A DNA stretch of 64,000 nt from Alphaproteobacteria bacterium (lineage in GTDB: Bacteria; Pseudomonadota; Alphaproteobacteria; UBA6615), in the NCBI GenBank assembly GCA_039980135.1, contig JBDXCV010000009.1:62001-126000 (forward strand). The letters are read 5' to 3'. Both the position numbers and the translations under genes were made by a program. Positions 36,120-43,892 of the stretch are shown in pieces; position 1 is the stretch's first letter; every line of letters starts with the position of its first letter. The notes under the pieces were generated by a model. It was not told the origin of the DNA. It searched no databases and was given only the letters and a program-made list of their open reading frames with translations.

Positions 36120-36683
36120 ATGGCTATGTACTGGCTCGATCATGTGAATATTCGCACCGCCAAACTCGACGAGATGTCCGCCTTCTACGAAGGTGTCCTC
36201 GGGCTGAAGCGTGGCAAACGGCCGCTTAGTTTCGATTTCGGAGGTGCCTGGCACTATTGCGGCAGCAACGCGATCGTTCACCTCGTGGAATCGGTCCGGC
36301 AGGTCAAGAATGGCGAAGCTCAGGTCGAACATTTTGCCCTGCGCGCCAGCGGCAGCATGAAGACGTTCCAGCGCAAAATGCGCGAACATGACGCGCCCTA
36401 TACCGTGGTCCCGCTGCTCGAGATAAACATGGTTCAGGTCAACGTGTTCGACCCGGACGGCAACAAGGTCGAGGTCCAGTTCGCCGCCACCGACAATGAC
36501 GATATGGAGCCCTTCCCGGGAAACAGCGCGGCGTCGAAGCGACGGTTCAAGAAGGGTGCGGACCTCAACAAAACGGGCATCATGTCGCTGAAGAAATCCA
36601 AGGCGAAAACGTCGAAGACCAACAAGAAACTGGGCGCGCCGAAACCGATCCATCCGCCCAAAAAGCGCACACGCCACGTCTAG
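36120..36683 (+). CDS. VOC (glyoxalase/bleomycin-resistance) family protein with basic tail
   Basis: 187 residues. Residues 1-125 are one VOC module: YWLDHVNIRTAKLDEMSAFY start with the first metal histidine, HFALRASG in the middle, and FDPDGNKVEVQF at the end with the metal glutamate. The last 50 residues are lysine-rich and unstructured (KKSKAKTSKTNKKLG), which is unusual for the family and suggests RNA, DNA or membrane binding. CGGAG precedes the ATG. Substrate unknown. Confidence 0.82.
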   Translation: MAMYWLDHVNIRTAKLDEMSAFYEGVLGLKRGKRPLSFDFGGAWHYCGSNAIVHLVESVRQVKNGEAQVEHFALRASGSMKTFQRKMREHDAPYTVVPLLEINMVQVNVFDPDGNKVEVQFAATDNDDMEPFPGNSAASKRRFKKGADLNKTGIMSLKKSKAKTSKTNKKLGAPKPIHPPKKRTRHV

Positions 36684-36788: not shown

Positions 36789-37394
36789 ATGTTCGGTCGA
36801 AAAGTACTTTCCTCAACGCTCGGCAGGGCGTTTGCGGTCACGGCGCTAATCGCCGCCGTGAGCCTGCACAATCCGGGCAGCGCGGCCGCCGAAAGCGTTG
36901 CGGCGGGCAAGATCATCCCGCATATGCTGGAGGTACCCGATCAAAGCGATCAGGTGCGTGGCTTCGAGACCCTGCGGGGCACAAAGGGCCTGGTCATGCT
37001 CTTTTCGCGTTCCCTCGCGTGGTGACCGACATGCATTCACCAGGCGGTCGTCTGGAACGAAAATATCGAAAAAATCCGCGCCCAGGGCATCGAGGTCGTC
37101 TCGGTAACGGCCGATGACGTCGCGACGGTTCAGCGCTTCGCCAAGCTGCGGAAAATCGACTATCCGCTCCTGTCGGACGCGAACCGCGATGTGATCAACG
37201 CCTTCGGCCTGTTCAACGACCGGTTCCCGGAAGGCAGCCGCTATCGCGGCACCGCCATTCCTATGGTGATCGTTGCCAATGCCGAGGGGGTCGTGACCCA
37301 CGTCTATAACGGCCACGGCTACACCGAGGATCATGAGATCGCGACGATCGTGAACAACGCGATCGAGGCCACCGAAGCCCCGAAGAGCCAGTAG
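36789..37394 (+). CDS. Exported redoxin selenoprotein 1 (UPTC), read through in-frame TGA
   Basis: 201-residue peroxiredoxin-like (AhpC/TSA fold) protein, if the TGA at 37023-37025 codes selenocysteine 79. The motif is SLAW-U79-PT-C82. The frame stays open across the TGA with clear family sequence after it (VVSVTADDVATVQRFAKLR, then YPLLSDANRD). The next gene has the same arrangement. Residues 1-34 are a signal peptide (basic start, hydrophobic core, AAA cleavage region), so the protein should work in the periplasm. GGAG lies upstream of the ATG. A SECIS-like hairpin begins 14 bases after the TGA. Likely role: periplasmic peroxide or disulfide reduction. Read as an ordinary stop, the gene would yield only 78 residues. 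Confidence 0.85.
37040..37055 (+). promoter_or_regulatory. SECIS-like hairpin of redoxin selenoprotein 1
   Basis: CCAGGC pairs with GTCTGG (one G-T wobble) around loop GGTC at 37046-37049. The loop starts 21 bases past the TGA, within the distance used by bacterial SECIS elements. Confidence 0.7.
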
Positions 37395-37496
37395 CCCGCC
37401 AGTTCTCAAGCGAATGTGTTTTGAAAGCGACGGTGCGATCACGCACAAACGGGTCTCCGGCGTAGCGTCCCATACGCAACAATTGAGACACCCGTG

Positions 37497-38111
37497 ATGT
37501 CGGCCCGTCGCATTTGCCACAAGCTTCTAAAGGCTTGGATTTCCGCTTTGGCGGTGATCCTGCTGGCGGGATTTCTCTGGCCGAATGCCGCCAATGCCCA
37601 GGTCGTGGACGCGGTCCGCGCCGGGGTCCAGGTCGGCACTCCCCTGCCCCATGATCTGACAGTGCCTGACCAGTCCAATCAGGTGCAGAGCTTCGTTACC
37701 CTGAAGAAAAACCGGGGCCTGATCCTGATCTTCTCACGCTCCCTGTCCTGGTGACCCTATTGCATTGTCCAGGCGGTCGCCTGGAACGACAGGATCGACG
37801 CGGTGCGCGCGCTCGGCTACGAGGTCGTCACCGTCACCTATGACGATGTCGGCACGCTGCAGCGCCTCGGCAAACGCCAGAAGATCGCCTACCCGATGCT
37901 CTCGGACGTGAATTCGGACATCATCCGGGCGTTCGGCCTACTGGCGGAGAATTACCCGCAAGGCAGCTTCTACTACGGGGTACCGCACCCGGCCATCATG
38001 GTCCTCGATAGCGCGGGCCAGGTCAGCCACCGCTTTTCGGAACGTCATTATTCCTCGCGCCCCGACATCGAGAATGTGCTGGCCGTCCTGCGCAAGGACG
38101 CGACGAGCTAG
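37497..38111 (+). CDS. Exported redoxin selenoprotein 2 (UPYC), read through in-frame TGA
   Basis: 204-residue tandem paralogue of the previous gene. The TGA at 37752-37754 gives selenocysteine 86 in SLSW-U86-PY-C89. The sequence continues with family blocks (VVTVTYDDVGTLQRL, YPMLSDVNSDIIRAFGL). Residues 1-34 form a signal peptide ending ANA, so it is probably periplasmic. The start is the ATG at 37497; a GTG lies just before. UxxC redoxins are known among bacterial selenoproteins. A SECIS-like hairpin with a perfect stem follows the TGA. Two diverged copies both keeping TGA and hairpin argue for selection rather than sequencing error. Confidence 0.85.
37769..37784 (+). promoter_or_regulatory. 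SECIS-like hairpin of redoxin selenoprotein 2
   Basis: Perfect six-pair stem CCAGGC/GCCTGG around loop GGTC (37775-37778), 21 bases past the TGA. Confidence 0.75.
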
Positions 38112-38271: not shown

Positions 38272-38886
38272 TCAGAGCGAGTAATACTCGACGACCAGGT
38301 TCGGCTCCATCTTCACCGGATACGGCACATCGGCCAGCTTCGGTCCGCGCAGATAGGTGCCCTTCAGGTTGTTCAGATCGACGTCCATATACTCGGCAAG
38401 ATCGCGCTCGGTCGATGCAATCGCCTCGAGCACCAGCGGCAGCTCGCGCGACTTCTCCTTGACCTCGATCACGTCGCCATCCTGAACCGCGTAGGACGGG
38501 ATGTTGACCTTCTTGCCGTTTACACGGATATGCCCGTGGTTGACGAACTGGCGGGCGGCGAAGATCGTCGGCACGAACTTCATCCGGTAGACGACCGCAT
38601 CGAGGCGGCGCTCCAGGAGCTCGATCAGATTCTCGCCCGTGTCGCCACGGCGACGCACGGCTTCATCGTAGTAGCGGCGGAACTGGCGCTCGCCGACATC
38701 GCCGTAATATTTGCGCAGCTTCTGCTTGGCCATCAGGTGAAGGCCGTAATCGGACGGTTTCTTGCGGCGGCGACCATGCTCGCCCGGGCCGTGCTCACGT
38801 CGGTTGACCGGGCTCTTGGGCCGGCCCCAGAGATTCTCGCCGAGACGGCGATCAATCTTGTACTTCGCGGAATGCCGCTTAGACAT
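38272..38886 (-). CDS. rpsD: 30S ribosomal protein S4
   Basis: 204-residue S4, with N-terminus [20 protein letters not shown], the S4 RNA-binding block ([28 protein letters not shown]) and C-terminal VEYYSL. It nucleates 30S assembly on the 5' domain of 16S rRNA. It is alone rather than in the alpha operon, as in many alphaproteobacteria. Confidence 0.97.
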
Positions 38887-42788: not shown

Positions 42789-43793
42789 TTATTTGTGGAG
42801 CGTGCCGTCCGGGTTGAAGGCGTTGAAGGCAAACGCAAATGTCATGTCGTGAATCGCATCCCGCAGACCCGCCGGCGTCTTGCGCTGGACCGTGACATAG
42901 CCGATATCGCGGCCTTCCTTGATATAGGCGATATCCAGCACGGAAAGCTGTCCCGTCTCCCAGGTCAGGACAAGATCACCAGCCTCTATCCGCTTTTCGG
43001 ATTTCAGCCGGTCGAGAGTCCACGCCTGATCACCGACCGCGACCACATAGGCCATCGGTGCGACCCCTTCCGGCAGCGGAATACCCGGAAACAGCGGCGT
43101 TTCCGACGTGTCGTAGCTATCATACGGGTTCACGCCGTAGTTGCGCGGAAAGCCGGGCGGACGCTGGAGAATATCGGCATCGGGAAACGCCGCGGCAAAT
43201 ACACCCAGCGGCTCGACCCGGCTGGGGATGATGGTGAGATGCATGCCCGCCATCTCGCCTACGATTCCCTCGCCGGTGAACTGCTGCCACCAGCTCTCGG
43301 TCTGGCGGTCATACATCACCAGATCGGAGAAGCGCAGATTGCCCGTGGTGCCAAAGTCGAGCACCTGATTATCCAAGCGCCGGTCGAACACGACGGCTGT
43401 ATTGCAGAGCGGACAGTAGGTCACCGCGATGGGCACCCCTCCGAGCTCGTCGTTGACGATCTCGTGCCAGATCAGGACCGACAGGGGATAGGCGCGGGTC
43501 TGTTCGTTGACCGTGACCCGGATCATCGGCTCACGCGCGTCATGGCTGTCATACGCGGCCTCGAGGGATCCGATGGTCGGCGTGTCGATGGCCGGGATCA
43601 CGTCCCTGCCGATGCCGCCGGATAAAATCTCGGCGAGATCGACATCCCGTTTGGAGAAATCCGTGCGCGGCCAATCCTTCTCCCACAGGTCGAAATCGGC
43701 AAACGCGACGGGGACGGCGAACGCCGTCGCGGCCACCGCGAACAGAAACATCAACGCATTAGCGCGCAGAAACACAGGCAGGCAGGCGATCAT
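42789..43793 (-). CDS. DUF3179 domain-containing exported protein
   Basis: 334 residues with an N-terminal signal (NALMFLFAVAATAFAVPVAFA). The DUF3179 block includes AYPLSVLIWHEIVNDELGGV, then the conserved TYCPLCNTAVVFDR with a CxxC and the GNLRFSDLVMYDRQTESWWQQ motif. AAGGAG lies eight bases before the ATG. Function unknown; it may be a periplasmic redox or binding protein. Confidence 0.85.
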   Translation of the reverse strand: MIACLPVFLRANALMFLFAVAATAFAVPVAFADFDLWEKDWPRTDFSKRDVDLAEILSGGIGRDVIPAIDTPTIGSLEAAYDSHDAREPMIRVTVNEQTRAYPLSVLIWHEIVNDELGGVPIAVTYCPLCNTAVVFDRRLDNQVLDFGTTGNLRFSDLVMYDRQTESWWQQFTGEGIVGEMAGMHLTIIPSRVEPLGVFAAAFPDADILQRPPGFPRNYGVNPYDSYDTSETPLFPGIPLPEGVAPMAYVVAVGDQAWTLDRLKSEKRIEAGDLVLTWETGQLSVLDIAYIKEGRDIGYVTVQRKTPAGLRDAIHDMTFAFAFNAFNPDGTLHK

Positions 43794-43892
43794 CCGGTCA
43801 TCTCCTTGGCCATGATGTTGGCCGTACGCCAAGCTACCGCGCCGGCCAGCGGCACATGCATGACAAGGGCTTCAATTCGATGTGAACGCTGC

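Follow-up and report, generated by a model that had tools for sequence, protein, structure and literature searches.

Two adjacent open reading frames within a 64,000-nucleotide stretch of an alphaproteobacterial contig (hereafter the window) each contain an in-frame TGA codon. The question raised by this locus is whether these codons terminate translation, are read as an ordinary residue or specify selenocysteine (Sec), and what two neighboring proteins of this kind would do in the cell. The best explanation, to which we assign a probability of about 85%, is that the two genes encode paralogous, probably exported selenoproteins of the peroxiredoxin fold, made by ordinary bacterial UGA recoding and acting in periplasmic redox chemistry.

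Gene A (36789..37394, + strand, 201 aa) and gene B (37497..38111, + strand, 204 aa), both assigned to the AhpC/TSA-fold selenoproteins, each hold a single in-frame TGA, so that one U appears in each protein when TGA is translated as Sec. The codons lie at 37023..37025 (+) in A (U79, ...SRSLAWUPTC...) and at 37752..37754 (+) in B (U86, ...SRSLSWUPYC...), in the UxxC motifs where an earlier note on this DNA had placed them. The shared layout which that note described was recovered in both proteins: a signal-peptide-like N terminus, a VPDQS segment, the SL(A/S)WUPxC motif, and matches to the families PF00578 (71.9 bits for A, 70.0 for B; cut-off 26) and PF08534 (56.7 and 45.2 bits; cut-off 26.6). 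An alignment of the two proteins, which the note had proposed, gave 43% identity, with both TGA codons in the same column.

The note had regarded a genome without Sec machinery as fatal to its claim, and this is not the situation encountered. The genome from which the window derives (3.76 Mb, 15 contigs, 98.8% complete) passes every curated cut-off, with SelA at 583.4 bits, SelB at 467.2, SelD at 284 and tRNA-Sec at 71.2. Curated cut-offs were used in place of a loose threshold, at which the SelB, tRNA-Sec and SelD searches matched all 14 control genomes; the curated values were passed by 2, 5 and 2 of these controls, respectively. ARAGORN likewise reports a tRNA-SeC with the anticodon tca.

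Other features of this genome touch on selenium metabolism. At about C3:826902-829281 (-) (loci L023 and L010) lies a 740-aa SelD fusion frame with the tRNA-Sec gene directly upstream; its length and its oxidoreductase-like N terminus, judged by eye, fit the Ndh-SelD fusions described in the available part of the Global Ocean Sampling (GOS) paper (PMC2398784). A third redoxin gene with an in-frame TGA (GHWUPYC), without an obvious signal peptide, is found at C3:836242-836892 (-) (locus L022), between the selD/tRNA-Sec and selA/selB genes. Within the window, 4.7 kb from the pair, a DUF3179 protein (42789-43832, -, 267.4 bits) is encoded in a Cys form; the available text of PMC13188914 tabulates this family as a selenoprotein family elsewhere.

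Related genes were collected at several taxonomic depths. Within the order, 14 of 24 genomes, the window's own included, have a match at E 1e-15, for a total of 25 matches: 22 with one TGA, one with three TAA codons (G007 copy A), and two without a stop, namely a Cys form in G010 and the third copy present in G002. The recurrence of the TGA in independently assembled relatives makes a sequencing error unlikely. Counting the window's own genome, matches at E 1e-18 were found in 14 of 385 genomes of a class sample, and matches were found in 21 of 398 genomes of a phylum sample. Outside the order, the class sample yielded four Cys forms and eight Sec sequences (three in G114 and one each in G231, G320, G397, G145 and G248); the one TAA in the translations from G231, G320 and G397 is the terminal stop. 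The note had called for homologues with Cys or Sec at the TGA position, and both kinds exist: alongside the TGA forms in relatives, a 41-row alignment, whose rows were first trimmed around W[UC]xxC, contains 10 Cys homologues with Cys in the U column. This alignment does not include two sets of phylum matches, those of family f199 (13 genomes, E 2e-21 to 8e-19) and a Cys form in G598. A further contig scan gave 60 pattern matches that reduce to five loci, apparently those of G021, G023, G022, G004 and G007, and these were not counted again. Viral contigs gave 15 pattern matches and no relative; among phage records, the one hit lies in an unannotated record of 3.5 kb and has 25.5% identity.

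A few copies depart from the common form. In G007 (loci L036 and L048), the TGA of copy A is replaced by TAA, two additional TAA codons occur and the hairpin loop is altered, and copy B looks frameshifted; these copies look like products of decay or of assembly errors. The third copy of G002 (L050:1238-1774, -) lacks the active-site segment, the TGA and the hairpin, through either a deletion or an assembly error.

SelB was found in 20 of the 24 order genomes: in 12 of the 13 with a TGA form and in 8 of the 10 without a relative. It was not found in G010, which has the Cys form, and not detected in G020, an 87% complete genome with a TGA form. Genes of the A/B type are not required by Sec users, since eight SelB-bearing genomes of the order have no relative at E 1e-15.

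The hairpin that the note had seen in both genes proved to be a conserved element. It lies at 37040..37055 (+) in A and 37769..37784 (+) in B, positions supported by comparison, with the loop GGUC in both, and consists of a 6-bp stem (CCAGGC-GGUC-G(U/C)CUGG) starting 14 nt 3' of each TGA. A stem-loop just after the UGA with a G in a small apical loop is given as a bacterial selenoprotein feature in the available part of PMC1088965, and this arrangement is present here, with single-sequence folds that are not significant. Folding of four stretches was no better than that of shuffles (z -1.31, -0.21, 0.32 and -0.92), and the case for the hairpin therefore rests on comparison.

For that comparison, 25 Sec sequences were used (22 of the order and three of family f104), with G007 copy A set aside along with five Sec sequences that are more distant and differ past the TGA (G114 a, b and c, G145 and G248); the sequences are related to each other, so the counts are not independent. 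All six stem pairs form in 25/25 sequences. Columns 27/36 hold G-C in 22 and A-U in three (G008A, G004A and G002y), a compensatory change; as G002y belongs to another clade than G008A and G004A, at least two double changes are likely. Columns 28/35 hold G-C in 18 and G-U in seven, and columns 24/39 C-G in 24 and U-G in one. Across the 22 distinct rows, 132/132 cells pair (100%), and none of 500 shuffles reached this percentage, the covariation score or the three doubly changed cells. Only one of the six pairs has a double change, a number reached by 186/500 shuffles, and the number of further pair types was reached by all 500. Pairing drops to 0-51% when the partners are slid by 1-3 columns. 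The loop codons GCG and GTC are invariant (25/25); elsewhere in these genes each accounts for only 41% of the codons for its amino acid. Among columns with a shared amino acid in at least 22 of 25 sequences, the four-fold site that comes next has an entropy of 1.26 bits. The hairpin overlaps the conserved QAV(A/V)W codons, and part of its conservation may lie at the protein level. Searched as a pattern, TGGTGA-spacer-hairpin occurs 21 times in 12 of the 24 order genomes, every time inside a redoxin match; a backwards control pattern has 0 occurrences in the same 24 genomes.

Selection past the TGA provides further evidence. In 14 orthologue pairs, over segments that exclude the signal peptide and the far C terminus, dN/dS ranges from 0.017 to 0.246 past the TGA and from 0 to 0.116 before it, the value past the TGA being the higher one in 10 of the 14 pairs, with dS above 1 or saturated in several. 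Values this far below 1 are as predicted for a translated downstream half and point to purifying selection past the TGA. Together with the TGA in most order matches and the Cys homologues, this supports the selection on the TGA that had been proposed.

These data bear directly on two other readings of the TGA codons. If they were true stops, both genes would be pseudogenes or yield truncated products, and TGA is indeed a normal stop in this genome, where it ends rpsD; the decayed or badly assembled look of G007 copy A also fits. Set against this are the TGA at this place in 22/25 order matches, the purifying selection beyond it, the Cys homologues and the invariant hairpin loop, which together leave this reading highly improbable. 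A changed code or a suppressor could instead insert another residue, such as Trp, and both frames stay open whichever residue TGA encodes. But the terminal TGA of rpsD speaks against a changed meaning, the Sec machinery is complete, the homologues have Cys and not Trp at the site, and a SECIS-like hairpin follows the codon; we consider insertion of another residue improbable in the extreme. Selenocysteine is the preferred reading for both genes.

The protein from gene A was modeled using AlphaFold2 with a 22-row alignment. The model has a mean pLDDT of 83.4 and a pTM of 0.76, with 122 of 201 residues at a pLDDT of at least 90 and an unstructured N terminus. Its best matches among solved structures are Bcp, AhpE and 2-Cys peroxiredoxins (3hjp: Z 22.2, rmsd 2.3 over 154 residues), and the predicted fold of A, the one protein modeled, is that of a peroxiredoxin. 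In profile alignments to PrxQ/Bcp chains, the Sec falls on a Ser/Thr, and the second UxxC Cys falls on the peroxidatic Cys three residues further on. Position 158 is an invariant Pro. The structure matches, the W-U-P-x-C motif, the Sec at the Ser/Thr place and Pro158 taken together indicate a peroxiredoxin-like fold with a thioredoxin-like site. Mature A and B contain no Cys besides that of the UxxC pair; in the TGA forms, any further Cys precedes the mature part, the exceptions being one residue in G020B and two in G007B that follow its apparent frameshift.

Several named families were considered and set aside. The proteins score well below the cut-offs for SelL-related redox proteins (NF040769; A 24.3 and B 27.1 bits, cut-off 120) and for ResA (NF002854; 37.7 and 15.9 bits, cut-off 170). 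Strict membership in the peroxiredoxin family was rejected as well: according to the available part of PMC13188914, the peroxiredoxin motif is TxxC, or PxxxTxxU in Sec forms, and here Sec stands in place of the Thr/Ser of the peroxidase motif.

A and B might still be true selenoproteins that act as classical peroxide-reducing peroxiredoxins, not as thiol:disulfide oxidoreductases. The fold, the PF00578 and PF08534 matches and the alignment of the second UxxC Cys with the peroxidatic Cys all agree with this. The occupation of the Ser/Thr place by Sec and the thioredoxin-like character of the UxxC site argue for the oxidoreductase side, and a classical peroxidase role appears rather unlikely.

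The periplasmic location proposed for both proteins is consistent with their N termini, as judged by simple sequence rules only. Signal peptides are predicted at residues 1-34 of A (36789..36890, +) and residues 1-34 of B (37497..37598, +, ANA/Q), with cleavage sites placed by eye. By these rules, applied without a control set, every one of the 25 order sequences shows a hydrophobic 12-mer, of mean hydropathy 1.88-3.02, together with small residues at -3/-1 under a loose definition of the site; the net charge of the n-region is positive in 24 of the 25 and 0 in one (G007 A). G011 and G001x have no ATG upstream in frame and need another start. As for the reductant, the genome has one DsbD_TM match, in a DsbD-like frame. 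In G114, G145 and G248 (loci L075, L068 and L069), Sec redoxins of the same superfamily run on into a DsbD_N domain (38.2, 38.0 and 38.1 bits, respectively, against a cut-off of 25); as these fusions show no obvious signal peptide, they bear on the periplasm only indirectly. The single DsbD and the fusions suggest, at the sequence level, a DsbD-type reductant.

The comparison of relatives also supports the origin of the pair by tandem duplication that the note had proposed. Two TGA genes occur side by side in the same locus in 9 of the 24 order genomes (G000, G021, G022, G023, G003, G004, G008, G001 and G002), directly adjacent in eight; in G022 another gene is inserted and the distance between them is 2.1 kb. 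This frequency within the order qualifies the note's statement that tandem selenoprotein duplicates are rare. This inserted gene (L053:3613-5190, -) appears by eye to be regulator-like, with a TPR-like region. In a tree of the 41 aligned sequences without G007B and G007 A, all eight A copies form one clade (100/100) and all eight B copies another (93/86, slightly short of what the program itself counts as strong support). Since genera g1 and g3 are represented in both clades, the duplication probably predates these genera. Genes of g2 form a group of their own together with G011 (96/88), so that the g2 pair reflects a separate or earlier duplication. At least three changes between Sec and Cys are needed on this tree. 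Within UxxC, the two middle residues are PT in 8/8 A copies and PY in 8/8 B copies of the tree; in g2 and g6 they are PF, TP or AP.

The genomic neighborhood is conserved. In the window, the pair lies between a glyoxalase/VOC-domain gene (36120..36683, +) and rpsD, encoding ribosomal protein S4 (38272..38886, -), and the same two genes enclose the redoxins in 10 of 13 relatives, with G002 and G003 cut off earlier by the end of the contig. G006, G011 and G020 have a single redoxin gene between VOC and rpsD, and the 3.5-kb locus of the G010 Cys form contains neither neighbor. Between 36600 and 38300, 0 promoter-like sites and one terminator-like site were found, numbers not above those of shuffles.

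Sequence comparison and the predicted model support the recoding signals, the machinery, the constraint, the duplication history and the fold. Under the selenoprotein reading, UGA would be recoded by SelA, SelB, tRNA-Sec and the SelD fusion, with the SECIS-like hairpin. In W-U-P-x-C, the nucleophile is probably the Sec selenolate; since the mature protein offers no redox residue besides it and the Cys three positions on, the catalytic cycle should pass through an internal selenenylsulfide between the two. A and B would most likely be periplasmic thiol:disulfide oxidoreductases (or thiol-dependent peroxidases) recharged by a DsbD-type pathway. The pair would have arisen by tandem duplication between the VOC gene and rpsD, both copies staying Sec while diverging, and the divergence between UPTC and UPYC suggests different partners for A and B. 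Export, chemistry, reductant, substrates and division of labor are inferred. A more speculative and rather unlikely proposal is a sub-functionalized periplasmic selenium redox module, in which two Sec redoxins with separately tuned UxxC motifs, kept by selection as Sec and not Cys across genera and fed by a DsbD-type pathway, would act on different substrates or on each other.

Such pairs may be easily missed, since annotation that ends a frame at any TGA would split both genes. With Sec retained in both paralogues in at least two genera, the pair is a natural test case for the retention of Sec in exported redox proteins. The single-copy losses, the Cys form in a genome without detected SelB and the Sec redoxin-DsbD_N fusions provide handles on function.

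Reviews and surveys (PMC13188914, PMC9312934, PMC2398784 and PMC1088965, in their available parts) list selenoproteins of the Prx-like UxxC and redoxin UxxC types. The Prx-like thiol:disulfide oxidoreductase selenoproteins (PF00578, UxxC or UxxU) of the Sargasso Sea and GOS surveys share with A and B, as described there, the AhpC/TSA domain, UxxC, a SECIS-like hairpin and Cys homologues; both proteins have the PF00578 domain with UxxC by which PMC13188914 tabulates this group. Unlike these, as far as the descriptions set them apart, A and B have signal-peptide-like N termini and form a conserved tandem of Sec paralogues, features unmentioned in the available parts of PMC13188914, PMC2398784, PMC1088965 and PMC9312934. 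The Redoxin family selenoproteins (PF08534, UxxC) of the reviews, known by description only, share the PF08534 match and UxxC and may be the same group. PrxQ/Bcp peroxiredoxins have the same fold and are the best sequence matches among solved structures, but they have TxxC where A and B have UxxC, and both proteins fall below the NCBIfam thiol peroxidase cut-off (63.8 for A and 53.7 for B; cut-off 140). Reads with two neighboring selenoprotein genes are reported in the available part of the GOS survey (PMC2398784), those genes being of different families. A partial literature search met no conserved tandem of two probably exported Sec paralogues. Within the literature covered, A and B are of an already known kind, the Prx-like UxxC selenoproteins, and the conserved tandem of Sec paralogues is the new part.
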